From contig OX359247.1 in assembly GCA_947179485.1 (NCBI GenBank), positions 41,144,801-41,208,800 of the forward strand: 64,000 bases of DNA, read 5' to 3'. How positions within the stretch are numbered: the first letter of the stretch is position 1; every line of letters starts with the position of its first letter. Shown here piece by piece: positions 6,470-33,484 of this stretch. The position numbers were made by a program, and so were the translations under genes. The notes beneath the pieces were generated by a model. That model had not been told where the DNA came from, searched no databases, and saw only the letters and a program-made list of their open reading frames with translations. Origin of the DNA: Allacma fusca (Eukaryota; Arthropoda; Collembola; Symphypleona; Sminthuridae).

Positions 6470-6635
6470 GAACGAAATGGGACAGAAAAATTGTCCCAAT
6501 GTTCCAATTTTCGTAACGGAACAGCAACATTATCCATACATCTAATTTTCGGGACGGGATGGGGACAGTATATATAATTGTGTCCCCGTCGGTAATGGGG
6601 ACGGGACGGATTTTCTGTCTCCAGTAGAAGCTCTA
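6470..6635. mobile_element. Degraded copy of the GTCCCG hAT-like MITE
   Basis: This stretch repeats GGGAC/GGGACGGGA words and ends in CCAGTAGAAGCTCTA, a slightly changed reverse complement of the left terminus of the element at 2819-3336. Only one terminus is recognisable, so this is a truncated or diverged copy. Confidence 0.5.
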
Positions 6636-8950
6636 CTTGGGATGTTTACAACCCGCTTAGCAGGTATTCTAGGAGCATCTTGGGTAGCAAAACAATTCGT
6701 GTAATTTGCGCTAGGTCTGAAAAAATATTTTTTAACGAGGATGTATCACACATACACATACAGCCAACTACGATAAGTATTTGTTACGAGTTTTTTACAA
6801 ATATAAACAAAACATACCCCCGTAGTCCCTGATATGTTGAAATAGGAGGGTGTCCGGGATTACCGAAAATTCGGTCCCAGTGTGTATCCCTGGTCGATTT
6901 CAAATTTTCAACCTCGCGATCAAATCAAGGCCACTGGGAAGGAGCTGTCAAATTTCAGCACCAACCAGCTTAGACACCAGGGCTTCAGTAGCATGTTTTT
7001 CGATTTAAATTTCTTTTATCTAGGCACGACCGCTGTATACATCTTAGGCAGATTTCACGAGTTGGGGTGTATTGGAATCTGAAAGGCTTCAAGGAAATTA
7101 GTCATTGTACACCGACGTTGTGAGATAACTTATATAATTTACAGTTAATACTATAAATGTTTTTGTTTATTAACAGTTTCCCTAAGGAATTCCTCGAAAC
7201 TTTCAGGGGCCTTGGCCTTTAACCATTTCCAAAACGGACTGAAGTTCAATATTGGTGGGCTGGAATGATGGCAGAGGATCAAAGAGATGCCAAGGTAAAA
7301 AGTTTGTATTAATGATCGAGCTGAAAAATGTAAAACTACTTTACGTACTGCAACACTGTAGCAATACTATGCCATTTCACGTCTCAACATATACACATGG
7401 TCGCACAAATGAGAACGCCAGGGCGTTTACGAGGTTTTCTTTTCTTGCAATTTCGGGTATTTATGGCACGTTGGGAATTTTCAGGCAGCATGTCAGCATT
7501 GTTGGAATGTTCACTCTACTGTGATTTGGAAAGCTCAATATCAAGAAATAATATTGGTCATATAGTAAATGCAGACAAATTCTTCTAAAAGTACAACACA
7601 AATACAGTATATTAAATATCTGACACTGCAGCACCAGGTTACATACAGCCGGTGCCCAAAAATTTACTTTATGTATGGGTAAAATTTAAACTCGCATGAG
7701 TACGGCAGTGCCTGCGATCCTGGTGATTGCCACTTTCTATTACCCCTCACGATTTGTGCAGCCGATTTAGCAACAGAAATTGCAAAAAAAGAACAGGAAA
7801 CATAATTATACTGGTGAAATGGGTAGGAAAAAAATCACTGTAAAAGTTAGATTTGTTCAAATCAGTTTGTGGTTGGTATATATGTAATTAAGTTTCAAAT
7901 CTAGTCATCAGCTAAATGTAGTTTTTGTGACGTCATATTTTTGACTTCTAGAGTTTTAATATTTTACTTGGGTAAGTGAAATAAGATTTTTAAAATTGTC
8001 AGAAATTCTAATATTTTAGAACCGACTCATTTGCAATAAAAAAATGTAAAATCTTAAATTCTGTCACTTCACTTCCGCTTCTGATTGTGAGATGAAAGTC
8101 TTTTCAAACTTGTACTCTATTTTTACCAGCCATCATCAAAATTATGAACTTACCAATGGATTACAATACCAATGAATACCATACGGTTCTTTCAAAAACT
8201 TACATTTTTTTTACAAAGCAGCGTTGAATATTGTTTAAACTTTTTGTCGGTTATAAAAATCCTTAAAAGGCTACATACTTTAGGGGCGTTCACATTTTTT
8301 ACAAAGAACTCAGGGATACGGAAATATTTTATGGGGTTTGAAAATACGAGGGAGCGAAGATCTCTTCAATACACCATGGGAGCGAAGGGGGTAAAAAATG
8401 TTTGCGCTAATAGTTCACATAAATGACTTTTAATTTACATAATTTATGATAAACTCACAAGAAATATGAAATTTTGAACACATCTAGAGTACCTACTATT
8501 TTAGATTATTCTAAAAAATGATGTACTGGGTATTGTTGCAAGTGTATGAATCGGAGGATGAAAGAATTTTATGCGAGAAACGAATAATTTCCATGACAAG
8601 AGGGACAAAAAGTCAGTATACTAGTATACTTGTTATATCAGTAATCCTGCCCAATGAATCAAACGCTACCTGGACTAACTTCATCAATAATTTTTTGTAC
8701 CGCCATATGGTTTCGAAGCTGTATAGGAATATATATCCACTGAGTATTTAGCACGGTACTAAGCAAAAACCATGGCTGCTGCATTTGGCTGGTTCGTTGA
8801 GCAGGATCTTAACAGGATTAAAAACTCTTCTTTTATTCTTAATTACAAGCTTTTGAAACCCCACTTTTCAACGTACTTTACTATGCAATATCCCGTTTCA
8901 ATACATGCGGCTTTTCTCGTAACATTGGGCTAGGGTCTGCATTTTCTACA
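6636..8950. other. Intergenic, no gene seen
   Basis: More than 2 kb with only short, motif-free open frames, for example 7252-7524 and 7397-7588, which overlap each other in two frames. I see no splice-consistent exon series, RNA gene or clear repeat structure here. Confidence 0.4.
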
Positions 8951-10644: not shown

Positions 10645-11080
10645 TCAAATTTTGATTTTAAGGAAATTCAAATATTGAGTCGATGAAATTTTGATTTTAA
10701 GGAAATTCAAATATTGAGTCGATGAAATTTTGATTTTAAGGAAATTCAAATTTTGAAAGTCGATGAATATTTAATTTTAAGGAAATTCAAATATTGAGTC
10801 GATGAAATTTTGATTTTAAGGAAATTCAAATTTTGAAAGTCGATGAATTTTTAATTTTAAGGAAATTCAAATTTTGAAAGTCGATGAAATTTTAATTTTA
10901 AGGAAATTCAAATTTTGAAAGTCGATGAAATTTTGATTTTAAGGAAATTCAAATTTTGAAAGTCGATGAAATTTTAATTTTAAGGAAATTCAAATTTTGA
11001 AAGTCGATGAAATTTTGATTTTAAGGAAATTCAAATTTTGAAAGTCGATGAAATTTTGATTTTAAGGAAATTCAAGTTTT
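10645..11080. repeat. Tandem array, about 11 copies of a 39-41-bp unit
   Basis: The core TTAAGGAAATTCAA recurs 11 times. Two unit types are visible. A 39-bp type has ATATTGAGTCGATG after the core, in the first, second and fourth units. A 41-bp type has ATTTTGAAAGTCGATG and fills most of the rest. The short type is confined to the left end, as expected when arrays grow by unequal exchange or slippage from one side. There are no spacers of differing sequence, so this is not a CRISPR array. Confidence 0.9.
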
Positions 11081-12363: not shown

Positions 12364-12529
12364 CAGCTTCAGTTACGCAGTTGGTTTTTAAGATTACGTA
12401 CTTCTGAAGTGACCTTTCCAAAATTCTAATTACATGGTCTTAGTACATCTATAATAATTACTTGAAACGTAAATTCAAGGTTGTTATAATAGACCAACAT
12501 CCAATCTTTGTTATCCAAATTTCATGTGT

Positions 12530-12546
12530 ACCTTTTCTATTTGTAG
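12530..12546 (+). other. Candidate splice acceptor before the giant exon
   Basis: The sequence CCTTTTCTATTTGTAG ending at 12546 is a good acceptor. The in-frame TAG at 12544-12546 would be removed with the intron, and the frame from 12547 is then open into the ATG at 12577. Either translation starts at 12577, or an upstream exon supplies an earlier start. A very short ATG-GAG-TAA frame at 12548 would also precede the main ATG in the mRNA. Confidence 0.4.
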
Positions 12547-12576: not shown

Positions 12577-15500
12577 ATGGAAGACTTACTCCTCAGTTTA
12601 AGTCCCATCACCAATGAATCTTTCTCAAGTTTTTATACTCGAGTTCAACATCTTGAGCTGAGCCTTACGCACTCACCCACCGATAAACCGTGGGAATCGT
12701 TATTCGTATGTATTTTACAGCAACTTCTACATTGTACTGGTTGTGACGATCTCGAAGATATTGTCCAACAAGCTGGGAAATACTGGGCGAGACTGCAAGT
12801 AAAAATAAATGAAATCATTCGAAGTTCGTCCAGCGTTTTAAATAAAACAATCACATGCGAAGAAATCTCGAAAACTATACAAAATCAGTCAAAGGGAGTT
12901 CAAAACTACATTGAAGACTTTCTTCAATTCCTCCACGACCATTTCAATACGAATGTAAAGCTCAGCTTTTTCGAATGGCGAGCTCTCTCCATGACACAGT
13001 TCCGGTACCCTGACCTCGAGAAGTCCCCAAAGGAAGAACATGCGATACTCGTAATGGATCCAGATCTTAATTGCTTTCGTCTATTGACTCCCGTATTAGA
13101 TTCAGGTTCCTCAATTGATGACTATTTCGAAGAATTATTCAACCAAATAATTCAAAGGCAAGAAATGCGTCCTTATTTTATCAAAAAATTCGAAAAGCTA
13201 GACACACCGGACTTCCAAACATGGGTTGACTCACAATTCGAAATTCTCACACAAGTCTCATCAGTGATAGAGTTTCCGAAACTCCTATTACCAGATTATG
13301 ACAAAATTGTGCCCTTGTCAAATTTCCCTTTACTGGCGAAATATTTTGACGCTGTTCAACCTTCAACAAAGGAAGAGATTTTGCAGTCACTCAAACAGTA
13401 TTACATCCTGTCAGTCGAAAACGCATCTAAGGTTATTTTGGAAACTCGAATAGCCCAGCATAAAGACGAGTACGTGAGAAGGATCGAAAAGGAAAAAGAA
13501 CTTCAGAGGCAAAATAATCAACTTGAACGGGATTATAAAACTGCAGAGGAACGAAAGCGAAAGTTTGAGTTAGAACTCCAGAATTACCGTCAAAACATGG
13601 AAGCTGACAAGGCAACCAAGAAAAAACAAGAGGAAATCATCCGCCAGAGGGAGCAATACATAGCAAAATCTGAAGGAGCACTGATACAGAAGCGATGCCT
13701 CTTAGCTTGGAACTGCTTCCGGAAAGACCTAATGGAGGTAAAATTTTCCTACGAAACTCTCCAGCAAGTATCTCAAGTACATTCAAACTCATTGATTCCA
13801 TTGGCCGAGCTTTGCAAAGATGTCTTAAAGTACCTCCCGTTACCTTCTTTTACAAACAATACAGAAAGAGAAAACCTACTGTTGTATATAGCAAACAATG
13901 ACACGCCAGAGACGAAAGCCGAAATTACGGGTATTTTATCCTTTTTATTCCAACCTCCAAATATAGCCTTTAACGCTAACAAAAACGAAACTTTGGAAGT
14001 GTCTGGAAGACATCTGATTGTTAGCGAATTGTTGAAGAGCATAGCCGAGTATCAATTTAAAGAATTAAGACTGGCAGCTGGCTTGACGATATACTTGAAT
14101 GCCGATTTTCCACAAGAACGTTTCCATGGCGTAAGTATTGTAATGTCTGCACCAACCATAGAAGTCATTGATATGGTTACAATAGACACTTCTGGGAATT
14201 CTGGCGATCCACAAATTAAACTCCCGAAAGCAGCGAATGGTGACTATAATGGACGAAACGGAACAGATGGGGAAGATGGAGCTGCAGGTGAAAGTGCTGG
14301 GCACGTGTATTTACAGACATCAGAATGGAAGCTTTCACGAAACCTGACTATCATTGCAAATGGTGGCCATGGTGGTGTCGGACAAGACGGTGGTGATGGT
14401 AGAGATGGAGATTCGGGTAGGGATGGAGTTGATGGCGATTCGAAAGCCAACTGGAAAAATCAACCCGATCCCAATAAGTACATCGATCGAGGAACAAAGG
14501 GTGATCGAGGGGATAAGGGGGGTGACGGAGGAAGGGCGGGTTTAGGTGGTGAGGGCGGTAATAAGGGCGTCGTTCTTACTTCTGAGAATTTCTGTGGTAA
14601 GATAATTGCAAATGAAGGTTGTCAGGGCGAAGATGGTAGATCAGGTTCTGGAGGAAGAGGGGGTCCAGGAGGATACGATGGTACTGATCATGGTTGTGCG
14701 TGGCATAACTATTCGTTTATGTTTGGAGAATGGAAGTACGCCAGAGGTGAACTCGATGTAAGGGAACAAAAGGTCTGGTATGGTGGCAATGGATGGGATC
14801 TAATAACTCGGAGGTCTGAAAGTGAGGTTAGGAGTTGTCAAGCCTGCATGGGTGGGGAAGGGTCTACTGGAAAGGATTCCTCGAACCGAGCAAGTCAGCG
14901 CAATAAAACTTCTACCAGAAACGACATCTCTCAAAACGAAATATTTGAAATGTCCAAAGCTGTGAGAAATTTGTATAATCATAGAGACCTAGCAAATTTA
15001 ACGAGAGAAACTGCTGCACTGAAAACTGATCAAGCTTTGGAGGCCCAGATGAGTAATCTAAGAAATTTGAAATCCGATGAAATGAGTGTGAACGATGAGA
15101 TCGATGCAAAGCTTGAAAGATGTCAGAAGAAAATTGATCATGCAGTGGAACTACAAACAAAGTTAAAATCGGAAATGGCTGGTACCGAAAGTCGGCAGCG
15201 GGACGTGTGCCGCCACTTAAAAAAAGTGGCTTTGGAGAAGCAACGCCTTAATTCAATTATCGACACCACCGAAGGTGTTGCTAACCAACTGAAAAAAACC
15301 TTTCAAGCACAACTGAAGTTTCAAAATCAAGCTAAACAACAGTTACAAGCAACCCTCAGTACAGAGTTTGATTCAACGCCCTTGGAACCTCAGGCTACCC
15401 AGAAAGTCATTTCAGAAGATATACAAATAAACAAGGAAACATGGATTGCTCGATATAAAGATATTCACAATTTGTCAGCCTTACCAGATGAGGTTTTACC

Positions 15501-18500
15501 AGTTGTGCTGGCGTCTAGATTTGCCAATAAAGAATCGGCTCGGGCCTTCGAAATCGGATTGCAATCTGTAGTTTCCAGTCAGACTTTATCAGCTAAAGCT
15601 AAAGGATTCGTTGAACAAATTTTTAACAGTTTCCGTTCTGACACAACTCCATCAACCGTACGATATTTTAATAACTATCTCTCTGCAGATGTAGACATTG
15701 TTCAACAAACAAACGCCTGGTCGGGAATAAGTCATAACGAAAAAGGCCTAATTTTTTCTCTTGACCGTCATTACAGACAGAAATCCTTAGAAGCTTTCCT
15801 CATACATATTCGTAACTCAGACGCTTTCGTGCATCCTGGAAAGGTTCAATCATTTCAAAATAATATTGATGACTTGAATAAGCAAAAATTTTCAGAACAT
15901 GGGAAGCTCATGCTTGATCACCTTTCTACCGTAATGGTAGATTTTATGGAAACATGGTTGTTGAGGAAATGGCTGAAGCACTATTCAATGTCTGGGATTC
16001 CTGAAAGTCCAGAAAATACCTCTGATATGTTACGCAAAGTCCGCTGTATTTACTTGGAGGCCAAACAATATATACCGAAACTGGGATTGCAAGAAGTGTA
16101 TAGTAATTTTTTCAGAATCATCACATCTGCGAAGCCAGAGATGCAAGACAAAGATATTTGGCATGAGTTTGTGCTAATCACCACTCATCTAAAATCCTAC
16201 TCTTATCTGACAACTGTAACACAGAGAAAATCCGATTTTGAACTTGTAGAGGCCGCTTTGGCGGCATTACAAGGTTCGTTATCCAATATTAACATCAAGT
16301 CTGACGTTTTTGAAAAGTTTAAGATTTTATTACTCGTATTCCGCCATGCAAATCTTCTTCCGGATCAGCTGCAGAAATTGTTTTCCTTGTGTGATGAAAT
16401 TTCTTGCATCATTTTGCAACCCAATGAGGATATTTTCTTCGAGTTTCAACAAGTCCTTCAGAGCATCGAAGATAATTTTCAGTACAATCATCTGCGACCA
16501 ATTCAATCAAGAATCCGAGACTATATCGATAACATCTTTCAGGGGAAAGCTAAGAAGCAACTTGGAAGTGTATTAAATGACACAGCAGACTTATTTGGAA
16601 CCTCCCATTATAATGCGGTCAGTTGCACTTTTCGATTAAAATGCCTGGAGGACTTTGAGAAATTTTTAAAACAATTAATCGACTGGGATGATTGTAGTAG
16701 CGACCTGGAAGAATATGAAACACAGCTAACAAACAGCTTGTTTGAAGAAATTGATGCAGTTTTGAAGGAACCATATCGAAATATATCTGAAAGCTCTTAC
16801 CATCTTACAAAATCTATTTTGAAGACTGGACGAAATGCTGTAAGCTCAATGTTTACCAGTAAAACCCAGTTGATCAAACAGGAGGAAATTCCGGCCATAA
16901 TTAAAATGATCAAGCTGCTTCGAAAACAAACTAGTTGGGGTCACATTCGTAAAAGTATGGACACTTCTGAATTGTTGGCCATGAACGATGAGTTGGAGAC
17001 ATTTTTTCAAGCTTCTCCCCATTTTTCAAACATATGTCTGATTAGGCATGAAATTCAACAGTTTCAGTTGTACTTTAAGGAGCAGTCCGTTATCAGGATT
17101 AAAAACGATGTAGCAATATTACTACAGTCCCGAAAAGATTGGATGATAAAGTTTGATCAGAAAATAGCTGGTATTGTTGAATGGGTGAAGACACGGATTG
17201 AAGATTCTAATGTTATTTTCCATCAGCAGGAAATACTCACGTGCATCAAGATGCATCTCATTAAAATCGTTGATGCTCGTCAAGTCTGCAGTCACAAAGA
17301 CTTTTCCAAACCTTTGAATATCAGCCAAATGTTGGAAGACTTAGAAGAGATATTGAAGAGGGACGAACCAACACCTGATAAACTACTTGCCAATGTTGAG
17401 GAACGGCTTAACCAAATAACTTCGTTCCTTCCAGGTCGGTTATGCTTGACCTTCGACTTTCCTAAGGATCCTGAAATGGGTGAAGAAGAGCTCGTTCCCA
17501 AGGAAGTTGATGTATCTGATGTAATCAAGTACGTGTCTAAGCAATTGGAGAATTATACAACAGATCCAAGTACATTATTAGAAGTTGAAGAAATTTTAAA
17601 AATCTCTTGCCACGTTCTGTCCCATTGCCACAAAATTGAACTCAATGTTTTCAGTGACAATATCAATGAAACCACCGTGCCCAAATTTGCTGAATTTCAT
17701 GATCAGGTCCAGAACCTTTCAAAAGGTCAACTTCAAAATTGTCTTTATTTGGCTCAACAGTTGAAACAATTTGACGGTCTCGTTACAGCATACGAAAATT
17801 CTGATTTTCGTAATGTATTTGAAGGACTTATAAATTCTCGCCAAAGAAGATTTGAAGATTTGGAACAAAAAGTAAATTTTCTTCTTAAGCGTACTCAAGA
17901 GGACCTGGAGGAAATTTCTGACGTACAACTTCGATGCGGCAAATACATTCTACCCTGGACTAAACCGTTAATCCACTATAACGACAGCATTGTAAAATTT
18001 ATATTTTCCGACTTTGAAGACATTACTTCAAATATTTGTGAGACGAAGTTATTCCAAATCTATTTACAGTCTGTACTGAAATTTCCGTATCTGCAAGACG
18101 TACTAGTACCTTCTTCAGTTCGAACCAATATTTTACAACTAGAAAGTTGTTTTAGTTGCAAGCAGTTCCAAAATGTTTTCAAAACGATTTTTCAGTCGTC
18201 AACTCAAATAGACCATTGGGGATTGCCAATCCTACTTCTAATCCAGAGGCTCATCATGGTTCTTCCAGAAGACAATTGCACGTGCCAGGAAATTCATTCT
18301 TTAGCTGTAGAAATAAATCTACTCGCCAAAAATATGCAAAGTGCAAAAGAACAAACAGTACTGGAAACTATCATGCTGAAATTGACAGCAAATTCATACA
18401 AATGTCTCACTAAAATTGCTACGGAACGAGAACTTCTTGACAAAGTGCACAGCACTGTTTCCATGGTCACCTATCGTAGAGGCATCATTCGGCAGAACGT

Positions 18501-21500
18501 CTTCAGATGTGAATTGTACCAGAAATTTGAGGCTTATTTCCAACATAGTCCTGCCGATGTTTCTGTTGCAGATTTCTACGACAAAGTAATCCTTCCTATG
18601 ATAGATATAGAAATCGTAGATACTTTTGGATTGAAATCGCCTTCATCCACCATTCAAGAACATCTGATCAATCTTGTCAACTCAGACGCCAAACATTTCT
18701 ACCGGCGAAACAATGAGATCCTGGGCCTCGTATTACTTCATTACAACCTAAATAAGCTTGAGACGGACTTCTGTAAGGCCATAGCAAACTGCAGTCATTC
18801 CTGGAAACCAAATAAGGAACAAAAGACAAGGCTAATAAATTTCATTGAATCAAACAACCCCAAGGAAACGAATTTGAAATTAGGAGAAAATCGCCTTGTG
18901 AAAATATTTTTAAACGACATCGACGTCGAGAAGAAAAATATGAATTTACCCTTTCTCTCTCCCAATGTGCTGATGTATTTAAAAATTTTAATACAATCAG
19001 TGAAACCTTCCAAACTTCCTGAAATTACAGAGAAAATCAAGCAAATATTGGTCCACTGCTGTTTATCAGAATGGGAATCAACGATTAAAGAGCTCGTGAA
19101 GAATTTCTGCTTTGTACGCCTTCTGAATTTAAATGTCCCAGAGGACTTCCTTGAAGCATTAGAAAATGTGGAACCTCGAGTAATGAAAAAGATTTCTAAA
19201 GAATTTGACACCTTCCGGGGCAGTTATAAGGAAATTCCCCAAAACGCAGAAACGCTAGAGTTGGTTTCCAAACAGTTCGACCGGAAGAGCAATACAAATA
19301 TTAGATTGGAACTAAAAGTGCATGAAATGATTCGCTTTAAGCACTTCTTCAATCGTCATTTCCACTTCAAAGCATTCGAGGATGAAGACATCGAAATTTT
19401 CCAAAGCTTTGATTTACTCTACCAAAGATTCCTAATTTTCCACGTTCCCTTTGAGGAGTTTAACGATCTCTTTTATCGATTAGCGGAAATACCATCAAAA
19501 AAAATAATTCAGACTGTTAGCAGCTCCAACGCGTTTGAATTTATGGAATCAATTTTAATTGAACTGGTGAAGAGAAATTATTCAGCCTTGTGTGAGAAAA
19601 AAGAAAATGCAGATTTCAGTTATTTGTTCGACATAGGGAGAGGATTGGCCCAGTGGAAAGAAAATGGATCCGCAAAACGAAAACTTATGGAAATTCTAGC
19701 TGACGCAATTTTGTTAGAAGTAGAATGTTTAAGTGGTTCTACAACCATCGATCTCGAAAAAGTTCGCCGGGCAATTGAGTGTATTCAAGATTTGAAAATT
19801 TCGACAAAATTAGTCAATGACCTCCACCAAACCCCGTTGACCATTTGGGTGCGGAAGATTCGTCAGCATAAATTATTGGAAACCTTTAATAGCAAGACTG
19901 CCGACGCCATTTTGAAATTCGAAGACAAATTTGGTCTGGTGACAAAAAAATTACTGGAGATATGTAATGGACAGCCGGAGAATCTTATTTTCGAGTTTGT
20001 GAACAATTTCAATTCTTGTCGCTGGGATGCCAGGCTATGTCAGTTAATTGAAACAGAAAACGATTTTACAAATTTAAGTGCGAAGTGCACAGAAGAGGCT
20101 GTAAAAATGCAGAACGCCATAATAGACATATCAGAGATTTCAGACCTTATGCGAGAGAACCCTAAAAATTGCAACATTATGAGTTACTTAGAACACGTGC
20201 CGGATGAAGAGTCGGAAGAAAATTGTTATACAGTTCCTGAGTGCCTCATGGAAATCGACTATTACAAAATTTTTGAACGAATTAAATGCGGGTCCAAAAT
20301 TGCAGCAGAAGTTAAAAAATTGTTAGTTGATCCTGACGAGACTATATTACAGAAACTACTGAACGTACGTTCAAACTTAAAAACCGCTGGTAATTACGCC
20401 AAGCAGAAACTCACAGAGTTAGTTCTTGGTGAGGAAATGGAGGGATTTGATTCAATTATATCTACGTGGGACGAGTCAAGGATTCAAAAGTGGGTTCAAC
20501 TTATTGTCTCATTTAATGATAAAAATGATCAAACTAAAATCGTTACGGAGCACTTGCACGAAGTCCTGGCAGTAATTTGTCGTGGAGTTTATCTTAAACA
20601 TGAATATTATCCAAGACAAACTCAACTGATTTCCGCATGGCTGCTCATTCAAAAATCCTTCCGACAAAAGGGATGTCTCGCAGAAATTCAGACCGGTGAG
20701 GGAAAAACTTTAATCATTGCGATGATGGTGATTGTTAGAGTCCTGTGTGGAGATGATGTAGATGTCATAACAAGTTCACCTGTACTCGCCCAAGAAAATT
20801 TGTCCGATGTTCAGGAACTTTACAACCTTTTCGGCGTAACTACGGGAACAAATTGCGACCTTGAAGCTGAAAGGGATGAGAAAGTTCGGAAGACCAGATA
20901 CAAGAGTAGAGTTATATATGGGGATGTCGCAAGTTTCCAACGGGATATACTTCTAACAAATTTCTTTGACAGAGCCATCACGATGGGTAGAACTACGGAC
21001 ATCATATTTGTTGATGAAGTAGACAGTATGTTACTGGACAAGGGTGAGAACATTCTGTATTTATCTCACAACATTCAAGATTTGAGATCACTATGGCCAA
21101 TTTTTGTCGAGATTTGGAACGCTGTTCATGCGCCTGACGTATTCCGAGGTCGTCCAGAAGATGTCGTATTAGTTACACGGTTTGTAAAACATCGGATCCA
21201 GAAAGGAGATATATTCTTCCCAAACAGTCTCAGCAAATTTATTAAAGAAAAGCTCGTGGTGTGGATACAAAACGCATTTCTCGCAATGAACATGAAAGAA
21301 AATGATCCCTACATACTATCCGACGTGAACAAGAAAGGCCCGTCAATTGTCATTATGGATAAGGATACTGGGGTCGAGCAAGTAAATATGAACTGGAGCA
21401 ATGGCTTACATCAATTCATTCAACTCAAGCACACTGACCGTCTGACTTCCGAAAGTTTGAAAGCAGTATTCATGTCCAACATTTGCTACTTTCGCAAGTT

Positions 21501-24500
21501 CAAAGGTAAACTCTTTGGCATCACAGGAACCTTGGGATCCGCTACTGAGAGTGAACTTCTGTCTAAATGCTATGATGTTGATTTCTTTGCTGTGCCGCGT
21601 TTCCAGTCAAGACGCTGCATCGAAGATGAAGGATTTGTTGTTCAGGATGAATTCACTTGGATTAAGAAAATTCAAGACATAGTTCATGAGAAATGCCGAC
21701 AGAATAGGGCTGTATTGATTATCTGTGAGAACGTAGATTCTGTTGATAAAATAGTAAAAGAACTTCGACCAATGCATTCCCAGAGAGTCACTGCATACAA
21801 AAGCTCGTTTGATGAAGAATTTAGGAAAAATAAGGAGACGACACCGCTGGACTCGGGGCATATTCTTGCGGCAACAAATATAGCGGGGAGAGGCACTGAT
21901 TGGCGAACAACCCAGGCTGTTGAGAAAGCAGGGGGTCTCCATGTAATCCTGTCATATATGCCAGGAAATGTCCGGATAGAAGAGCAAGCTTTTGGAAGAA
22001 CGGCACGTAAAGGGCTACCTGGCTCAGTTCAATATGTTGTTATTCATACTGACACAGAGGACACCACTGTGGATGCACTCAGGCGCACAAGGGATGAAAA
22101 CGAAAGCAAACGTTTAGACAACTTCAGAATCAAAAGTATCCCGCGTATCGAAATTGAGGAGAAGCTTTGTGAAAGATTTCATGAAACTTTAAAAATTGTC
22201 AAATCCAAGCTAAACGTAAAGGATAATGATGTTCAAAAGCTTCATATCGAAAATTTGAAGAACAAATGGGCCATGTGGTTGGATTCGATGTCCGAAAGTC
22301 TAAAGTTAGTTCACGTCAAGGGCGAGGCTCCGATTATCGAAGATTTTGAGAAATTCAAGTCAGACATGATAAGCAAAGCTGGTGGCGTTTCCAAATTTGA
22401 ATCCGGCCCGGTCGAACTAATCAAGCTGGGTAAAATTTACGAGGAAAAGGAAAACTTTACCCAGGCCAACGTTTATTTTGATAAGGTTATCAATTCAGAA
22501 CCTAACTACAGTGAAGTGGCTCATTATTACAAAGCAGCCACCACACTAAAGGAGAAATCATCGGGTATAGAGTCGAAGCGTCTAGCGATTCAACACCTAA
22601 AATTATCCCTTAGACTTCTCAAGAAAAGGATGAGCCAACTCATGTCATCTTCAAAAACCTTGCAGATGACAGATAATATTAGACGCCAAGATGGAATGGG
22701 TACAATGTCCAACAGATACGAGAAGCAGGTTGAGAACGAATGTGAATTATATCAAGTTCACTGTGGTAAGATAGAAGAGGCTATAGGAGCACCCATAACA
22801 TCAGGACTACTCAAAACCATAACGTTTGTCATAGACGATAAAGAGTCCACTGACATTTTTGAAGTGTTGAGAAAAAACCCTGGCGTTTGCAAGAACTATC
22901 GACTTAGTAAAAAAGTCGCGTTCAGCGAAGATGGGGACCTAATTGTCAATAATACGACCAGCCCGTGGCCTCCTCTGTTTATGTACTGCAAGTCTCCTGT
23001 GGTAGAGTTCCTAAAAAATTGCCTTCAAGACGGTACTCGAAGTAGTCGTTTTATGGAAGAGCATGCATTTTGTGGAGTGTTCGAAAAATCAGTTGTGACT
23101 CGTAACAAATTCTGGACATTTCTCATCCAAAATAAAGTCCTGATTCACAATAGAGTGGAGAAAATGATCATTATACGCAGCTCCTCGCCTGAAAAATTCA
23201 AATCTGTGATGTTACCAGAAAGTATTCAGGATTACAAGCGTATACTCGAAACCATTTTACAAAACAATGATAACGATGTTTACAACATGAATCTTCTCGA
23301 AGATCTGTATCTTTCTCCCGAACAATTGTCTTCCATAGAAGTGGAACTTGCTGTAGCAGGAATATTGTGTTTAGAGGATATAATGGTAGCAGACGTAAAT
23401 ACTGAGCTCACTGAGAAGTTGCAATGGAATCCTATCCTAAAATCCTGGGACGGTTTCACGCCAGAGCTTCAGCAGTACCAAGACTTGGTGGAGGTGGTCA
23501 TCCAAAAGTATTCCGGGAAGGGGTGTAAGCAACCCGTGTTCGAAGATACGATTCGGTTTGACGAAATTCCATTACCCTTGGACGATCTTACATCATCAAA
23601 GACCGTATGGACATTTTTACGTGACGCTCGCGCAATTAAAGATGTTCGTGTAAATTTTTCATTGGATCATGCGCAGAGTGAGAAAAATATCAAGGCTCGA
23701 TTTAGTCAGATCAAAAGATGCTTAAACCGAGATATCGAACTACAAAATATTTTCAGACGTTATCACGACATTCCAGAAATTCAACCTAACACCGATCATG
23801 TGATGGAAGTCTTAGAGAAAGCCGTTGGAAAAATCAAAACATTGCCTGCAATTGACATATTCTACACACCCTTATCGGATTACTACAAAACTGGAGCGTA
23901 TCCTCCAGAACTTGAAGACTTTAATGACCAAAGCTTTGGGAACTTACTTGAGCTTACGGAGAAGACGCATTGGTTTGACTGGAGGGCTTTTTTGGTGGCC
24001 ATGCTTGGTCTGCTTCAAATAGCCGGCGGAATATGTATGTTAGTTATGTCAGGTGGAGCACTTTTTCATTGGGGGGCTTTTCTAATAAGTGAAGGAATCA
24101 GTGATGTGCTGTTTGCAATCCAGGCCGGGTTGATCAACAGGAACTTTTCATGGACAGATTATGGAATTCACAAGGCTATGAGTGTCAGCATCTCTGTAGT
24201 CACTATGGGTATAGGTGCTTGGTGTGGCAGTGGAGTTGAAGCTGCCCGATACTTAGGAAAAACTGCCTTCGAGATATTGAAATTGGCAGGAAAAGACGTA
24301 CTAAAAAAAGCTGGCAAGGCAGTACTGGAGTTCTTTGCAGAATTGGGATTTGATCATTTGTTGGACTACCTGCGGGAAAAAATTATAGTAAGCTGTCGAA
24401 CTGAATTAGACTCCCATTTTAAAAGTGGTAACGAGGCTTTATTTAATGAAATGAGTGAGGTCGTAGATCAGATACATGCTCAGAGCTATGAGAAAGGACA

Positions 24501-25965
24501 AGCGGAGAGACTGATTGATGATACGTTTGAAAATGTGTTTAAAAACGAGAAGGAAGGGAGCTTCGGGAGAACCATAGGAGCAAAAGCTAATGAGATTAGT
24601 AGTAGTGTGATTAAAATTTTGGGAAATTGTAGTGACATTGCTAATAGCAAAATATTTTCTAACTCTTCTAATAAGCACCTAAGGCGAGTGGAGAAGGTTG
24701 GAAAAGTACTAAGTAAGCTTACAAAAGCTGCCGCTTTTTTAAAACCTTTACTTGAAATGGCAACATATGCGAAGGAAATTTTGACGGTCCTGATCAGAAG
24801 TCTAAGGGCTACTCTGGCAAATCTACAAACGCAACGGGTTGGAAACAATGGGGCACGAGAAGACAAATCCACAGATGCTATTTTTGGAACGTACAAGCAA
24901 AACTTTTTTCATGATATTACCGCAAAAATTGTCGACTTTATGGCTACCACTATCCAGTCTCAATTCCTTGTGCCCGCATTTAATTACGCAGCCAGATGTG
25001 CAGTCAAGTTACTGAATAAAAAGATAAAGAAAAATACTAAGAATTCTCTCCGACATTTACATATGGAAAAGTCTACAATCCTAATAAAGCAACTTCAGTT
25101 TGAACAAAAGAAAGCAGTGCAAATTCGTGCCTTGAATAAAATTAAAGGCAGGACCACTATTAGAGATCTGGACCCAAGGACTTTTCTTCAAGGCTCGGAT
25201 TTCACAGTCAGCACTGCAGCTAATTTTTTCGGTGACAATGCTGTCTTTTACGAAGACAACAAGGGCAAGGTTCATTTTGGAAAGCCAACTCTTTCCAGTG
25301 TGATTCAAAGCTTTGGCAGAGGCACATCTGTATCGCTTGTAGAGCTATTTGTGTGCGCTTGTTACTTTGGGTTTATTCTCACCGTTGAAGATACAACCGG
25401 AGAACTCAACTGTGAGGATAGCATATTGGAGATTGCACCCGTGTCGCATTCAGGTTCAAAGAAAAATGCCAAAAGTGGATTTATCACTGCAAACTTGGTG
25501 TACTTGCGAAATGACAAGGACGAGGCACTGCTCAAGCCCAAATACAATGGTGAAGTTCAAGAACTTGAAGATGAATCTGAAGTGAGTAGACTTGGATTGT
25601 ATCAGAGTTTGATATTTTTGAAAGCAGTCATGAGGGTAGAGGGCACTGCGTTGAGGAGTGAAAGACGGACCATGATGAAAGATGCTTGTGATGTATCTAA
25701 CATAGCATATACCATTGATAATGTGAAAAGTTTTGTCCAATCAAATCTAAAGGACTTTAACATTGTTCAACATTTATTTGAAAAAATGTTACAGCAGAAC
25801 AACCTAGGAGATAATTCCAAAACTACAATGGAATGTATCCAGAACTTGAGTTTGGATGGTGTTGAAAGTATTGAAGGTGGTTACGGAAACGGTCATATAA
25901 TAAGAAAAATTCAGAACAGTATTTCAATGTCTGATTCTGCTAGGAAAAACCAGATGGAGTGTTGA
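12577..25965 (+). CDS. Giant single-exon protein with a SecA-type ATPase core
   Basis: 4462 residues with no stop or visible intron. Residues 286-367 are coiled coil and 540-770 a collagen-like glycine-rich block (GXXGXX, many Asp/Arg). A second coiled coil spans about 788-930, followed by some 1700 residues of helical, unassigned sequence. Residues 2675-3170 match the SecA motor: Walker A AEIQTGEGKT (about 2702), Walker B DEVD (2813), the SecA-specific WSNGLHQ, ITGTLG, IAGRGTD (about 3102) and QAFGRTARKG (about 3138). A TPR-like helix pair follows (3281-3318), then hydrophobic segments at 3802-3853 and 3868-3890. SecA uses ATP to push proteins through a membrane channel in bacteria and plastids. 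Catalytic residues look intact, so ATPase activity is plausible. The substrate, location and role of this protein are unknown. The SecA wing and scaffold domains are not recognisable. Eukaryotic neighbours argue against contamination. Confidence 0.9.
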   Translation: MEDLLLSLSPITNESFSSFYTRVQHLELSLTHSPTDKPWESLFVCILQQLLHCTGCDDLEDIVQQAGKYWARLQVKINEIIRSSSSVLNKTITCEEISKTIQNQSKGVQNYIEDFLQFLHDHFNTNVKLSFFEWRALSMTQFRYPDLEKSPKEEHAILVMDPDLNCFRLLTPVLDSGSSIDDYFEELFNQIIQRQEMRPYFIKKFEKLDTPDFQTWVDSQFEILTQVSSVIEFPKLLLPDYDKIVPLSNFPLLAKYFDAVQPSTKEEILQSLKQYYILSVENASKVILETRIAQHKDEYVRRIEKEKELQRQNNQLERDYKTAEERKRKFELELQNYRQNMEADKATKKKQEEIIRQREQYIAKSEGALIQKRCLLAWNCFRKDLMEVKFSYETLQQVSQVHSNSLIPLAELCKDVLKYLPLPSFTNNTERENLLLYIANNDTPETKAEITGILSFLFQPPNIAFNANKNETLEVSGRHLIVSELLKSIAEYQFKELRLAAGLTIYLNADFPQERFHGVSIVMSAPTIEVIDMVTIDTSGNSGDPQIKLPKAANGDYNGRNGTDGEDGAAGESAGHVYLQTSEWKLSRNLTIIANGGHGGVGQDGGDGRDGDSGRDGVDGDSKANWKNQPDPNKYIDRGTKGDRGDKGGDGGRAGLGGEGGNKGVVLTSENFCGKIIANEGCQGEDGRSGSGGRGGPGGYDGTDHGCAWHNYSFMFGEWKYARGELDVREQKVWYGGNGWDLITRRSESEVRSCQACMGGEGSTGKDSSNRASQRNKTSTRNDISQNEIFEMSKAVRNLYNHRDLANLTRETAALKTDQALEAQMSNLRNLKSDEMSVNDEIDAKLERCQKKIDHAVELQTKLKSEMAGTESRQRDVCRHLKKVALEKQRLNSIIDTTEGVANQLKKTFQAQLKFQNQAKQQLQATLSTEFDSTPLEPQATQKVISEDIQINKETWIARYKDIHNLSALPDEVLPVVLASRFANKESARAFEIGLQSVVSSQTLSAKAKGFVEQIFNSFRSDTTPSTVRYFNNYLSADVDIVQQTNAWSGISHNEKGLIFSLDRHYRQKSLEAFLIHIRNSDAFVHPGKVQSFQNNIDDLNKQKFSEHGKLMLDHLSTVMVDFMETWLLRKWLKHYSMSGIPESPENTSDMLRKVRCIYLEAKQYIPKLGLQEVYSNFFRIITSAKPEMQDKDIWHEFVLITTHLKSYSYLTTVTQRKSDFELVEAALAALQGSLSNINIKSDVFEKFKILLLVFRHANLLPDQLQKLFSLCDEISCIILQPNEDIFFEFQQVLQSIEDNFQYNHLRPIQSRIRDYIDNIFQGKAKKQLGSVLNDTADLFGTSHYNAVSCTFRLKCLEDFEKFLKQLIDWDDCSSDLEEYETQLTNSLFEEIDAVLKEPYRNISESSYHLTKSILKTGRNAVSSMFTSKTQLIKQEEIPAIIKMIKLLRKQTSWGHIRKSMDTSELLAMNDELETFFQASPHFSNICLIRHEIQQFQLYFKEQSVIRIKNDVAILLQSRKDWMIKFDQKIAGIVEWVKTRIEDSNVIFHQQEILTCIKMHLIKIVDARQVCSHKDFSKPLNISQMLEDLEEILKRDEPTPDKLLANVEERLNQITSFLPGRLCLTFDFPKDPEMGEEELVPKEVDVSDVIKYVSKQLENYTTDPSTLLEVEEILKISCHVLSHCHKIELNVFSDNINETTVPKFAEFHDQVQNLSKGQLQNCLYLAQQLKQFDGLVTAYENSDFRNVFEGLINSRQRRFEDLEQKVNFLLKRTQEDLEEISDVQLRCGKYILPWTKPLIHYNDSIVKFIFSDFEDITSNICETKLFQIYLQSVLKFPYLQDVLVPSSVRTNILQLESCFSCKQFQNVFKTIFQSSTQIDHWGLPILLLIQRLIMVLPEDNCTCQEIHSLAVEINLLAKNMQSAKEQTVLETIMLKLTANSYKCLTKIATERELLDKVHSTVSMVTYRRGIIRQNVFRCELYQKFEAYFQHSPADVSVADFYDKVILPMIDIEIVDTFGLKSPSSTIQEHLINLVNSDAKHFYRRNNEILGLVLLHYNLNKLETDFCKAIANCSHSWKPNKEQKTRLINFIESNNPKETNLKLGENRLVKIFLNDIDVEKKNMNLPFLSPNVLMYLKILIQSVKPSKLPEITEKIKQILVHCCLSEWESTIKELVKNFCFVRLLNLNVPEDFLEALENVEPRVMKKISKEFDTFRGSYKEIPQNAETLELVSKQFDRKSNTNIRLELKVHEMIRFKHFFNRHFHFKAFEDEDIEIFQSFDLLYQRFLIFHVPFEEFNDLFYRLAEIPSKKIIQTVSSSNAFEFMESILIELVKRNYSALCEKKENADFSYLFDIGRGLAQWKENGSAKRKLMEILADAILLEVECLSGSTTIDLEKVRRAIECIQDLKISTKLVNDLHQTPLTIWVRKIRQHKLLETFNSKTADAILKFEDKFGLVTKKLLEICNGQPENLIFEFVNNFNSCRWDARLCQLIETENDFTNLSAKCTEEAVKMQNAIIDISEISDLMRENPKNCNIMSYLEHVPDEESEENCYTVPECLMEIDYYKIFERIKCGSKIAAEVKKLLVDPDETILQKLLNVRSNLKTAGNYAKQKLTELVLGEEMEGFDSIISTWDESRIQKWVQLIVSFNDKNDQTKIVTEHLHEVLAVICRGVYLKHEYYPRQTQLISAWLLIQKSFRQKGCLAEIQTGEGKTLIIAMMVIVRVLCGDDVDVITSSPVLAQENLSDVQELYNLFGVTTGTNCDLEAERDEKVRKTRYKSRVIYGDVASFQRDILLTNFFDRAITMGRTTDIIFVDEVDSMLLDKGENILYLSHNIQDLRSLWPIFVEIWNAVHAPDVFRGRPEDVVLVTRFVKHRIQKGDIFFPNSLSKFIKEKLVVWIQNAFLAMNMKENDPYILSDVNKKGPSIVIMDKDTGVEQVNMNWSNGLHQFIQLKHTDRLTSESLKAVFMSNICYFRKFKGKLFGITGTLGSATESELLSKCYDVDFFAVPRFQSRRCIEDEGFVVQDEFTWIKKIQDIVHEKCRQNRAVLIICENVDSVDKIVKELRPMHSQRVTAYKSSFDEEFRKNKETTPLDSGHILAATNIAGRGTDWRTTQAVEKAGGLHVILSYMPGNVRIEEQAFGRTARKGLPGSVQYVVIHTDTEDTTVDALRRTRDENESKRLDNFRIKSIPRIEIEEKLCERFHETLKIVKSKLNVKDNDVQKLHIENLKNKWAMWLDSMSESLKLVHVKGEAPIIEDFEKFKSDMISKAGGVSKFESGPVELIKLGKIYEEKENFTQANVYFDKVINSEPNYSEVAHYYKAATTLKEKSSGIESKRLAIQHLKLSLRLLKKRMSQLMSSSKTLQMTDNIRRQDGMGTMSNRYEKQVENECELYQVHCGKIEEAIGAPITSGLLKTITFVIDDKESTDIFEVLRKNPGVCKNYRLSKKVAFSEDGDLIVNNTTSPWPPLFMYCKSPVVEFLKNCLQDGTRSSRFMEEHAFCGVFEKSVVTRNKFWTFLIQNKVLIHNRVEKMIIIRSSSPEKFKSVMLPESIQDYKRILETILQNNDNDVYNMNLLEDLYLSPEQLSSIEVELAVAGILCLEDIMVADVNTELTEKLQWNPILKSWDGFTPELQQYQDLVEVVIQKYSGKGCKQPVFEDTIRFDEIPLPLDDLTSSKTVWTFLRDARAIKDVRVNFSLDHAQSEKNIKARFSQIKRCLNRDIELQNIFRRYHDIPEIQPNTDHVMEVLEKAVGKIKTLPAIDIFYTPLSDYYKTGAYPPELEDFNDQSFGNLLELTEKTHWFDWRAFLVAMLGLLQIAGGICMLVMSGGALFHWGAFLISEGISDVLFAIQAGLINRNFSWTDYGIHKAMSVSISVVTMGIGAWCGSGVEAARYLGKTAFEILKLAGKDVLKKAGKAVLEFFAELGFDHLLDYLREKIIVSCRTELDSHFKSGNEALFNEMSEVVDQIHAQSYEKGQAERLIDDTFENVFKNEKEGSFGRTIGAKANEISSSVIKILGNCSDIANSKIFSNSSNKHLRRVEKVGKVLSKLTKAAAFLKPLLEMATYAKEILTVLIRSLRATLANLQTQRVGNNGAREDKSTDAIFGTYKQNFFHDITAKIVDFMATTIQSQFLVPAFNYAARCAVKLLNKKIKKNTKNSLRHLHMEKSTILIKQLQFEQKKAVQIRALNKIKGRTTIRDLDPRTFLQGSDFTVSTAANFFGDNAVFYEDNKGKVHFGKPTLSSVIQSFGRGTSVSLVELFVCACYFGFILTVEDTTGELNCEDSILEIAPVSHSGSKKNAKSGFITANLVYLRNDKDEALLKPKYNGEVQELEDESEVSRLGLYQSLIFLKAVMRVEGTALRSERRTMMKDACDVSNIAYTIDNVKSFVQSNLKDFNIVQHLFEKMLQQNNLGDNSKTTMECIQNLSLDGVESIEGGYGNGHIIRKIQNSISMSDSARKNQMEC

Positions 25966-30062: not shown

Positions 30063-31283
30063 TTATTTGTCCAGCATATGCTTTCTTATTTTCTCCAAAA
30101 CTGATTTCTTCGGGACATCGTCGTTGAAGCACACTCTCATTCGTTTGGGAGCAGGACTCATGATGGACGAGCCGGAGTTTGACTCTCTTCCAGATTTCCC
30201 GTCGTACCAACTCACAGGTGATGAGGTTCTGGAAGAATTCCAGGGCTCACACTTGAACACTCTACCAAGTTGAACCTACGAAGCATTAAAGAAAGAGCAA
30301 TGAGTGTAACCTCATGTGGATTCAGTTTAATCAGAATGCGAGTCATACCGTTGATTTTGAAGAAACGATGTGTAACTCCTCACTTCCCACGAAAGCATCC
30401 TCACGCTCTGACGCTAGTAAACAGTCACTTCCCATAATGACCTTATCCAATTCGAAAACACTGCCGCTCAAACTGTCAAATGCCAATTTAGCTGCTCCGT
30501 ACTTGGCATATTTGAGCTCGTAAGCAATTTCTGAATGTTAGTATTTAGTAAGAGAATAATCTATTTTATTAGATTGTACATATATTTGTTAGATGTAAGT
30601 ATTATAAATCAGTACAAAACATTTGACTGCATATTGTTGTGAGGTCACTGAACCCAATTACATACCTTTAAACTTCTTCCCATTGACGTCAACCGTGACT
30701 TGGTACTTGTCCCGTCCCTTAACGAACACACTATGAATATCATAAACAGGGGTTCCATATTTCATCTTCTTACAGAGATATTCCAATGCACTGACCACGG
30801 ATGAACAGATGCGGGAGTTCTTGGGAATCTGGAAAGCGGGTAGTGACAAAGTAGATTCCTCCAGAGTTACTTGTATTAAAAAATCCATCGCAGCTGATTC
30901 CTTAGCTAAGGACTTGCGTGGTGCTTCTCCGAGTCCTGAAACATTGCACACGATTATTTATCATTCAGTGTTTGACTTTTAAAAAATAGCCACTACAACG
31001 ACGTCTCATTCAAAATATTTTCCTTACCTACGAATTTATTCTTCCGTGTGTCACGACCATCATACACCCTAGCCCTCCATCGGCGCTGATAAAATTCCGG
31101 GTGGAACTGATCCGTCATTTCGAATTCTTCAGTTACTACCAAATATCCCCTTTCAGCCAAAAGCCTGATCCCGGAGAGTGGAGTGTAACTCGGTCCATTA
31201 AATATTTTTCGAAATTTTTTCGGCCGGCAAAATATTCCTGATCCGAAGCGTCCGTCAGTTTGTGCCGTAACGGTGAAGTCCAT
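30063..31283 (-). CDS. Protein with two double-stranded-RNA-binding domains
   Basis: Four exons on the minus strand join in frame: 31283-31028, 30935-30666, 30530-30349 and 30275-30063. All introns are GT..AG, and the product is 306 residues. The ATG at 31283 is the first after an in-frame stop. Residues about 34-107 form a dsRBD: helix, three strands, then GLGEAPRKSLAKESAA, the typical G-x-G and Lys-rich helix. Residues about 131-197 form a second, containing GTPVYDIHS, YQVTVDVNGKKF and YAKYGAAKLAFDSL; its loop lacks the usual Gly-x-Gly. The last 100 residues are polar, with a basic PAPKRMR stretch that may be a nuclear signal. Such proteins bind dsRNA as cofactors of Dicer, ADAR-like or NF90-like systems. 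I cannot assign it to one family. A 5' untranslated exon near 31425 is possible. Confidence 0.85.
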
Positions 31284-33184
31284 CTCAAGGTTGTAAATAT
31301 TTTTTGAAGAAATCAATTTCCAAATTAGTTAATCCTCACAACCAGCTATAATATTTATTTTACTATAGATACTTGAAATAATTGTACAATTAATAGCTCA
31401 AAAAATACTTTCACTAACCTTACGTTCCACAGCTACGTGTCTCTCTAGGAATTTTGAAGAATGTCCTTGCTGACAGAACACGCTGGACTAGTGTGTTCTA
31501 TAATTTTGGTTATCAAAATGCGGGGTACAGAATATGTTCCTAAAATTCGGCTAAAGACGGACTTTTATGCACCACGCTTTCAGTAGAAACTTTTGCATTT
31601 TATGCAAAAAAAATTATTTTAATATAGTACATTTGCAACGCGAATAAATACCTTCACTTGGTAGAGCCTGCCGAAATGTAGTTACGTTTTAGTGACACTT
31701 CAATGTTTTTTGAATAGTCAACAATTTGAATTAACATTTGCATTATACAGGGGCTGTGTGAATAGTAGCATTTTTATTATTTAGTTAAATTATATTTTAA
31801 TTATTATGTACTGACTAAGTACAGGGATATGCATACCTAAATCACTTATAGGCCATGCCGGAAGGACGTTGTTCAAACATTTCATGCGTTTGCGAATGAC
31901 TGTGCCATATGTAATCATCAACAATTAGAACACGCCGAGGTTTTTGTCCACTGGCTTTCTTTTGTAGCAAGAATAAGAAATCCGTAACTTGAAATGTTAA
32001 GGTGAATTAATATTTTGGGGGTCAGGCTAGAACCGAGAACAGAGGACAATTGAGAACACAGAGAACAGAGAGGCTAGAAGTGAGGACCACGAAAACAGAG
32101 AACAGAGGACAAGGACTGGGGACGGAAGAACCAAGGACACTTTCGGCTAGAACCGAGAACAGAGGTCGAGATCAGTGAATGGGGACAGATCACTGGGGAC
32201 AAGTTCTGAAAACTGGGGACGGGTCACTGGGGTCATCAACACAGGGCAAGAAATAAGATTTAATTTTCAGGGTCCTAATTGAAGAAAAAAATTGTTGAAT
32301 CTAAAAACTTTAAATTCGCAGCAATAATTGTGATTATTAAAGATCACTGTCATTTTGCGCTTGAACACAATTCGAACTTCAAACAAAATTTACTGAGATA
32401 CAAATTTTCTCAGACAGCTAATCGATTTCCGTTGTCTCAATTGTCTTGTTTAGCTGACTTTAGAAATTGTGCCATATGGTATACAATCTGTGAAATCACA
32501 TCTTATTTGAAAAAGACATCCCTGTTGCAAAACTTGGTCATCATTTTCGGTGCAAACTAAGGCGAAATCGACTAACTGTTCTGTTCTTGGTTGGCCAAGG
32601 TGACAAAGCTCAAACTATTTTTTATTCTGACCCTATTGACTTGAGCCAGGGCGTGTAATAATTAGAGACCCATAGAATGTCCTTAAGTATTCCGTCGACA
32701 ACGAAAAGCATATAATATATGTAGGAAGGGCGTAGAATACGTTGAGCTGGTTTGTCAATGAAATGTAGTAATAATGGGGAAGTCCCTGAATGGACAGTCC
32801 GATCTCGTCTGAGTCTCAGAGTATCATGAAATATGCCCGTCCAATCCGTCCCAGTTAGAAATGACGTGAGTTCGACTCACGATCAGTTTCAATCTCTGGC
32901 AGAGGTTTTGGTTAAAGTCTGTATCCGTCCCTAACAGGCATGTGTAACATCGTGTAGAACTCCCATAAGTGAAGTCCCTTGATGAGGACAAAAATGTCCC
33001 CTTAGGCTATTTCCGAAATACTGTGTTTAAGTCAAAACCGACAACGTAAATGTGTTCAACACCATACCAGGAGCTTAAATAAATTTTTTGGGCCCATTCG
33101 GGTAACAGGACACCCGGCTTAGGTTAGCATTGTTACATCGCGATAACTGCCGTTTGTGTTGGCCAATTAGGACCAAACCAAATG
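31284..33184. other. Intergenic with a purine-rich GAACAGAG/GGGGAC patch
   Basis: Contains the probable promoter side of the dsRBD gene near 31430-31500, where CCTTAC on the plus strand could be a minus-strand donor of a leader exon. At 32033-32240 the words GAACAGAG, GAGGACA and CTGGGGAC are iterated on one strand. This looks like another self-repeating element whose termini I cannot define. Nothing else is supported. Confidence 0.4.
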
Positions 33185-33484
33185 TAAACCCACTTATGGC
33201 TTATAGTCTGTTGCTTTACTGCAAACACACATAGCGGGTACCGGAACCGGGTAATACAATACCCAGTATCCGTAAATATTCAAAAATATGTGACTTCATG
33301 CTGCAGCAATATGTTTTTATGATTGATAGGCGACAGACTATTTTCGTGCTAATGACATCCGGGCATTGTACCCGGGTTTTATAATACCCGGCCGAATATC
33401 GGGTATTGAATTACCCGTTCCCAATACCCACCGGATACTTGTGTTAGCATTGAAGCAACAGACTATAAGCCATAAGTGGGTTTA
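33185..33484. mobile_element. MITE with 31-bp perfect terminal inverted repeats
   Basis: AAACCCACTTATGGCTTATA and the following 11 bases (33186-33216) are repeated exactly in reverse complement at 33453-33483. One further outer base pair also matches (T at 33185, A at 33484). The 300-bp interior holds several small palindromes built on GGGTAT/ATACCC, for example CGGGTATTGAATTACCCG. I see no clear target duplication, so the superfamily is open. Confidence 0.85.

Follow-up and report, generated by a model that had tools for sequence, protein, structure and literature searches.

A giant SecA-family gene in the springtail Allacma fusca: a candidate disarmed member of a mobile protein family built like polymorphic toxins

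A stretch of 64,000 nucleotides in the genome of the springtail Allacma fusca (contig OX359247.1, here C10; C10:41144801-41208800; "the window" hereafter means this whole stretch) carries a giant gene with a reading frame of 4462 codons, in which a SecA-type motor core is embedded in a much larger protein. Our preferred interpretation, which we hold with moderate confidence, is that the window gene comes from a horizontally mobile family whose giant proteins are built like polymorphic toxins and bring their own motor, with a proposed function in translocation, and that it has been disarmed in the animal lineage. The first-pass annotation of the window had described a huge uninterrupted frame with a SecA-type core, which our searches bear out, and had raised the possibility of an undescribed eukaryotic SecA-derived system. 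The latter suggestion needs qualification: giant animal secA genes and their Wolbachia relatives are already in print (PMC3639933, PMC5062602), but we found no earlier description in the literature of the toxin-like trunk, the permuted OTU domain or the disarmed yet selected state, and these constitute the new content of the present analysis. The gene is real and bears the marks of selection, and its family is known but poorly understood; the interest that the first-pass annotation took in it was warranted, the reading as a "SecA system" less so.

The frame and its trunk comprise the following features:

12577..25965, + strand: giant SecA-family open reading frame (P0001), 4462 amino acids from an ATG start, open for all 4462 codons
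13774..15156, + strand: N-terminal module, residues 400-860, with a glycine-rich GxxG stretch at its end; detected by profile in 91 of 125 proteins, the window protein among them
15157..20403, + strand: region with almost no detectable relatives, residues 861-2609; five segments covering residues 850-2640 each matched 0 of 124 proteins
20404..22116, + strand: SecA-type two-RecA motor core, residues 2610-3180, with motor motifs intact; identified by Pfam, by sequence matches to PDB entries, by our own profile (125 of 125 proteins) and by alignment with E. coli SecA
20692..20709, + strand: Walker A motif TGEGKT, residues 2706-2711, placed by alignment with E. coli SecA
22114..22836, + strand: helical TPR-like module, residues 3180-3420; profile match in 118 of 125 proteins
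23524..24456, + strand: hydrophobic module, residues 3650-3960, with the motif AMLGLxQI..G...LISEGISD..FA....FSW..Y..HK, predicted to insert into membranes; profile match in 124 of 125 proteins

A conserved trunk around a SecA-type motor

Searching with residues 2600-3250 of the window protein, we found 555 relatives. The set analyzed here consists of 125 proteins, namely the window protein, the best 120 of the 555, and four from a further search; module profiles were built from the window protein and searched against this set. In the motor core, SecA_DEAD matches residues 2643-2989 with 105.5 bits (E 4.1e-30, cut-off 24.6), accompanied by weaker Pfam matches to P-loop_SecA, Helicase_C and SecA_PP_bind. 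The motifs TGEGKT, VDEVDSM, WSNGLHQ, TGTLGS, AGRGTD and FGRTARKG all align with those of E. coli SecA, and among solved structures the nearest in sequence are those of SecA2 and SecA, over approximately residues 2697-3187. The NCBIfam label for the core is likewise SecA/SecA2, but the score is far under every cut-off.

The two-RecA motor and its motifs are shared with the SecA translocase of bacteria (E. coli SecA, SecA2 proteins). The wing/scaffold domain SecA_SW (PF07516) has no match in the window protein up to E 1, and SEC-C has no Pfam match, whereas the E. coli SecA control scores 243.8 and 41.7 bits, respectively. The preprotein cross-linking domain (PF01043, PPXD) reaches 20.1 bits, under its cut-off of 23.5 (E. 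coli control, 139.3). The window protein therefore has a SecA motor, but in the absence of SecA_SW and SEC-C it is not a complete SecA; unlike its bacterial counterparts, this motor sits in a protein of 4462 amino acids together with an unrelated membrane module.

The order of the trunk modules is constant in all 125 proteins. Ahead of the motor, the core match reaches back to residue 2370 in one relative (P0059, by BLAST). A whole-database search with residues 1-1200 yielded none at E <= 0.001 among 1497 scored candidates sharing most words; despite this null result, the glycine-rich module is common to the 91 fetched proteins listed above. After the motor, Pfam TPR gives sub-cut-off matches in a gammaproteobacterial relative (L001) and none in the window protein, and the profile of a middle module matches 34 of the 125 proteins.

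Only the motor is more constant than the hydrophobic module. A 19-residue window with a Kyte-Doolittle mean of at least 1.6 occurs in this module in 108 of 124 proteins, compared with 4 of 124 when 300-residue stretches are drawn at random from these proteins; in 55 of the 124, however, the much longer portion preceding the module also contains one. Comparison with PDB profiles gave a best E of 0.075, which is not credible, and comparison with Pfam gave nothing credible. The pattern of the module had 36 matches in viral contigs, none of them relatives, and 168 in genome contigs, two of which are relatives (L001 and L002). The length that follows the module varies: 500-750 residues in 83 of the 124 proteins, more than 750 in 23, and fewer than 300 in eight. 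As judged from sequences and models, the relatives share a trunk consisting of the glycine-rich module, a SecA motor lacking wing/scaffold and SEC-C, TPR-like helices, the hydrophobic module and, often, a circularly permuted OTU-like domain of the cysteine-protease type.

Two further observations concern the trunk. The hydrophobic module of the gammaproteobacterial relative has a weak prePAAR_I match (L001:3241-3333; 17.7 bits, cut-off 25), at most a hint of a common membrane-passage motif, which we do not use as evidence. A protein of 2846 amino acids from Lutzomyia longipalpis (P0002) has two tandem SecA cores; the alignments with the window core span 395-1050 and 1062-1759.

Exchangeable C-terminal ends

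Whereas the trunk is constant, the ends are not. We clustered the last 160 residues of 116 proteins (single linkage, E 1e-3), leaving out the eight whose tail is shorter than 300 residues and the one that lacks the hydrophobic module. The tails fall into 64 clusters, while the hydrophobic modules of the same proteins form a single one. In the relatives scanned with Pfam, the ends identified are Endonuclea_NS_2 in P0003 and P0013, Ntox5 in P0030 and P0044, LHH nuclease in P0085 and P0077, Ntox46 in P0040 and Tae4 amidase in P0050. By precomputed domain annotation, 17 of the best 120 of the 555 relatives carry one of these five families. A constant trunk combined with changing toxin ends is the signature of polymorphic toxins (PMC3482391). 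The constant trunk and the 64 end clusters, which include known toxin domains, thus give the family the architecture of polymorphic toxins that bring a motor of their own. No immunity gene was seen at the window gene or directly after the L001 relative, in inspection that did not extend to a systematic search.

Two previously described systems come close. Polymorphic toxins with OTU-type releasing peptidases (PLOTU) share with the family a conserved trunk, a protease near the end and a swappable toxin tip (PMC3482391). Giant actinobacterial toxins share the SecA-like ATPase domain, which is predicted to aid secretion (PMC8195603). The hydrophobic module and the permuted OTU domain are not part of either description, as far as the available portions of these papers extend, and the window copy differs in having no recognizable tip.

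A degenerate OTU-like domain in the window protein

The tail of the window protein can be compared both with the relatives and with a broken paralog on contig C1, and contains the following features:

25252..25794, + strand: degenerate, circularly permuted OTU-like domain (a putative pseudoenzyme), residues 4226-4406; identified by comparison of profiles, alignments and structure models
25519..25521, + strand: Asp4315, in the column of the relatives' catalytic His (alignment A5); the region reads NEALVRP in the C1 paralog
25594..25596, + strand: Gly4340, in the column of the relatives' catalytic Cys (alignment A5); SRLGLYQSL is also found in the C1 paralog
25795..25962, + strand: C-terminal end, residues 4407-4462, in which no toxin domain, nuclease or otherwise, is recognized; the C1 paralog stops at the same point

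In the relatives, the two halves of the domain profile match OTU domains in swapped order, with His preceding Cys. This order is shared with EschOTU, a permuted OTU deubiquitinase (PDB 6w9s; PMC7396840), and 6w9s ranks first when the model of an armed relative's OTU-like domain is subjected to a second-look structural alignment. Foldseek gave no significant match for the same armed model (OTUD5/DUBA, 3tmo, appears at rank 15 with E 1.6) and none for the whole tail model; the permuted order may be responsible for these nulls. The second-look alignment of the tail model also brought up 6w9s, but most of its top rows are helical, largely membrane proteins, aligned on the hydrophobic and helical part, and we give these no weight.

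EschOTU is a catalytic deubiquitinase, whereas in A5 neither catalytic residue is present in the window domain. The placement of the catalytic columns depends on the alignment. A5 scatters its first ~60 residues, and A2 and A3 are poor in parts, so that we draw no conclusions from them. A stricter, OTU-only profile has no match in the window protein, the Cys-box pattern occurs nowhere in its tail, and residues 4228-4462 contain 0 Pfam families up to E 0.1. By the best alignment, then, the window protein is disarmed, with an OTU-like domain devoid of the catalytic His and Cys and an end devoid of any recognized toxin domain. A recent truncation of the C-terminal end was considered and rejected on the basis of the common end point in the C1 paralog. 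As a separate observation, the permuted OTU domain of P0056 and P0061 (Parachlamydia and another relative) keeps His and Cys and is followed by ~200 further residues.

Purifying selection on the disarmed form

The C1 paralog (C1:5458140-5476593, L023-L025) is related to the window protein over its whole length, from residue 1 to 4461, in five pieces of 51-61% identity and a short sixth of 32%. This copy is broken, with frame changes from one piece to the next and an in-frame TAG. Residues 937-1071, 2035-2478 and 2645-3190 have no match in it, and the last of these gaps, in the place of the motor, holds frames that by eye resemble Ty3-like gag, reverse transcriptase and integrase. At both catalytic sites, its sequence is the same as in the window protein or nearly so. 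The losses common to the two copies imply that disarming predates their split, at a synonymous divergence (dS) of ~0.74.

The ratio of nonsynonymous to synonymous substitution (dN/dS) between the window gene and the paralog is 0.374 (95% interval 0.34-0.41) over 3062 codons, with none of 1000 bootstraps reaching 1, as calculated by the simple Nei-Gojobori method over separate in-frame pieces, where the decay of the paralog itself raises the values. By part, the hydrophobic module has a dN/dS of 0.305 and the OTU-like domain one of 0.46 (0.30-0.69), while the value of 0.73 (0.32-1.88) for the last 55 codons is uninformative. The shared losses and the overall ratio together indicate that the disarmed form has long been under purifying selection in the comparable parts, and some of the constraint may have acted on the C1 paralog before it broke. 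The retention under selection proposed in the first-pass annotation is therefore supported outside the motor, which falls outside the comparison because the paralog has none.

Distribution and horizontal transfer

Among the best 120 of the 555 relatives, named animal sources include Daphnia, Moina, Lutzomyia, Anopheles, Stomoxys, Halictus, Apolygus, Folsomia, rotifers, Mytilus, Clytia and Amphiura. Stylonychia represents the ciliates, and the named bacterial sources include Wolbachia, Rickettsia, Tisiphia, Parachlamydia, another chlamydia and a gammaproteobacterium. The closest of these 120 is only 45% identical. We built a tree of 129 cores in one FastTree run, rooted on one housekeeping SecA (E. 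coli). The 11 named bacterial cores fall in at least four separate groups (chlamydiae, Rickettsia/Tisiphia, the gammaproteobacterium and Wolbachia), with some deeper nodes weakly supported. With these groups scattered among animal and unnamed cores, the family evidently moves between domains of life; the direction of movement is not readable from the tree. The window core lies beside the giant proteins of Daphnia and Moina, apart from the housekeeping SecA (support 0.928), a position that speaks against a plastid-type SecA in a tree that holds no plastid sequences. Of the two origins that the first-pass annotation had offered, transfer accordingly has a basis in the history of the family, while for a retroposed copy we found no evidence.

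Giant, essentially intronless secA genes were reported from insects, Daphnia and Wolbachia in 2013, most of the annotated introns being judged spurious, and transfer from eukaryotes to Wolbachia was argued for them (PMC3639933). Wolbachia wBol1_1092 and wBol1_1091 and the wHa homologues described there resemble the window gene in combining a SecA-type core with a huge, essentially intronless gene found across arthropods and Wolbachia, and wBol1_1092 was reported to be under purifying selection, as we find for the comparable parts of the window gene. The accessible sections of that report deal with the secA domain and how it was transferred; the hydrophobic module, the permuted OTU domain and the changing ends do not appear in them, and the window gene adds a disarmed member. 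The eukaryotic association module of phage WO contains two SecA homologues among domains that are more eukaryote-like than bacterial, and secretion is one of the four functions predicted (PMC5062602). These homologues sit in a bacterial prophage, whereas the window gene lies on an animal chromosome.

A second group of SecA derivatives

SecA_DEAD matches five other places in the A. fusca genome, all on one strand at C10:49802116-49935154 (L009-L018). This cluster consists of intact frames of 2241, 2312 and 2314 amino acids and two broken copies. In the three intact frames, each of the six motor motifs examined is changed, five severely, and TGTLGS reads TCTLGS; profiles detect neither the hydrophobic nor the TPR-like module in these frames. 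The three group with a Lutzomyia protein (FastTree support 0.953), and the two closest are 79% identical over 2289 codons, with a dN/dS of 0.56 (0.49-0.65). By sequence, the genome holds two long-kept kinds of SecA derivative: one with the motor motifs intact and the tail dead, and one with the motor dead.

Proposed mechanism and alternative explanations

Our model for the armed relatives assigns a task to each part. The hydrophobic module would insert the trunk into a membrane, and the SecA-like core, operating without the scaffold of SecA, would use ATP to drive the adjoining C-terminal piece through it. The OTU-like protease would release the end or, alternatively, strip ubiquitin in the target cell. 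SecA-like domains have been proposed to aid secretion of giant actinobacterial toxins (PMC8195603). The window protein would have kept the motor and membrane parts while its tail was disarmed in the animal lineage, and could now serve as a tamed translocator or membrane ATPase, or else counteract armed relatives encoded by symbionts or at other loci.

An alternative that we regard as possible, if on the unlikely side, is that the family acts as an NTPase-switch sensor and effector of innate immunity or cell death, similar to STAND/NLR proteins: the variable arm would sense, the ATPase and TPR-like part would gate, the OTU-like or nuclease ends would act in the same cell, and the window member would be a regulatory pseudo-effector. 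The long, family-variable region ahead of the core, the TPR-like helices, the lack of an N-terminal hydrophobic stretch in the window protein, and the spread across animals, rotifers and ciliates would all suit such a role. It does not readily explain why the hydrophobic module (124 of 125 proteins) is second only to the motor in constancy, nor the Tae4-type amidase end of one relative, which is most sensible against bacteria; moreover, the Wolbachia prophage module with SecA homologues also has toxin domains (PMC5062602).

It is improbable that the window gene is a transferred gene decaying into a pseudogene, in which the tail died first and the frame is intact by chance and recency. Decay is in evidence, as the OTU Cys box and end domain are missing and the C1 paralog and two of the five copies in the C10 cluster are broken. 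However, the losses are older than a split at dS ~0.74, yet 4462 codons are still open, and the dN/dS values for the whole comparison and for the OTU-like domain are those of constraint.

Still less credible, and in our view very improbable, is a genuine protein translocase with SecA function at an organelle or symbiont membrane of the animal. The intact ATPase motifs, alignable to E. coli SecA, are what such a role would need, but SecA_SW and SEC-C are absent by Pfam, PPXD is under its cut-off, and of the five other SecA-core loci in the genome three are without motor motifs and two are broken. Finally, assembly contamination by an endosymbiont, brought to mind by bacterial relatives such as Wolbachia and Rickettsia, is a negligible prospect given that the gene lies within a 66 Mb contig amid animal-type genes and a retroelement, that a diverged paralog lies on another contig of 82 Mb, and that the closest of the best 120 of 555 relatives is merely 45% identical.

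Genomic surroundings

The assembly (392.7 Mb in 91 contigs, chromosome-scale) and the neighborhood agree with the animal-type locus recognized in the first-pass annotation. Pfam finds globin (2.4e-15), trypsin (2.8e-7) and double-stranded RNA-binding (dsRBD; 2.2e-6) domains in the 75 flanking frames, and the surroundings also hold LDL-receptor A repeats as well as a retroelement that encodes reverse transcriptase and integrase. Other elements of that annotation fare differently. The frame is open throughout, but upstream of the ATG there is a sequence resembling a splice site:

12527..12546, + strand: putative 3' splice site, TTTCTATTTGTAG / TGTACCTTTTCTATTTGTAG; a consensus match only, ending 30 bases 5' of the ATG and in frame with it

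A 5' exon is therefore possible, and "single exon" may hold only for the part that was read. An intron-bearing gene within 6 kb fits a pair of exon-like frames at 30661-31328 (- strand), 4.7 kb downstream, which we assigned by eye to a dsRBD protein; DND1_DSRM/dsrm Pfam matches are among the flanking frames, and this pair is likely the intron-bearing neighbor. The flanking miniature inverted-repeat transposable elements (MITEs) did not materialize: repeat scans of the window find no MITE pair adjoining the gene, and we rejected a MITE-borne gene accordingly. Two inverted repeats are present: one at 33174-33495, at a distance of 7 kb from the gene, has arms of 66 nt, and the other, at 6228-6812, is an imperfect 24-nt pair.

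The window also contains a minisatellite (10647-11080; 41-bp unit, 10.7 copies) 1.5 kb 5' of the giant gene, and a Ty3-type long terminal repeat retrotransposon at 46683-56470, whose terminal repeats of ~1.05 kb are 95-100% identical in the direct-repeat blocks compared and whose gag and pol frames lie at 48432-53608. Rfam and tRNA scans gave no matches.

Implications

A broader proposition, which we consider unlikely as a whole, is that animals have repeatedly captured a self-contained, ATP-driven machine for injecting proteins, in which a SecA-type motor is fused to a membrane module and cargo of its own, and at least once disarmed it and kept it under selection; the window gene would then be a domesticated translocator or an antidote, with its cargo killed and its engine kept, and a SecA-type motor would be moving proteins inside an animal cell. 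If the interpretation proposed here is right, the puzzling annotation of "secA in animals" would become a testable machine in which one polypeptide is motor, membrane module, protease and cargo, common to intracellular bacteria, protists and animals. Armed (Daphnia), disarmed (the window gene) and dead-motor (the C10 cluster) relatives lend themselves to direct comparison. Wolbachia, Rickettsia and chlamydia-like symbionts would gain a route for moving proteins that dispenses with a multi-protein apparatus, and animals would offer a case of a captured weapon whose warhead is gone and whose engine is preserved.
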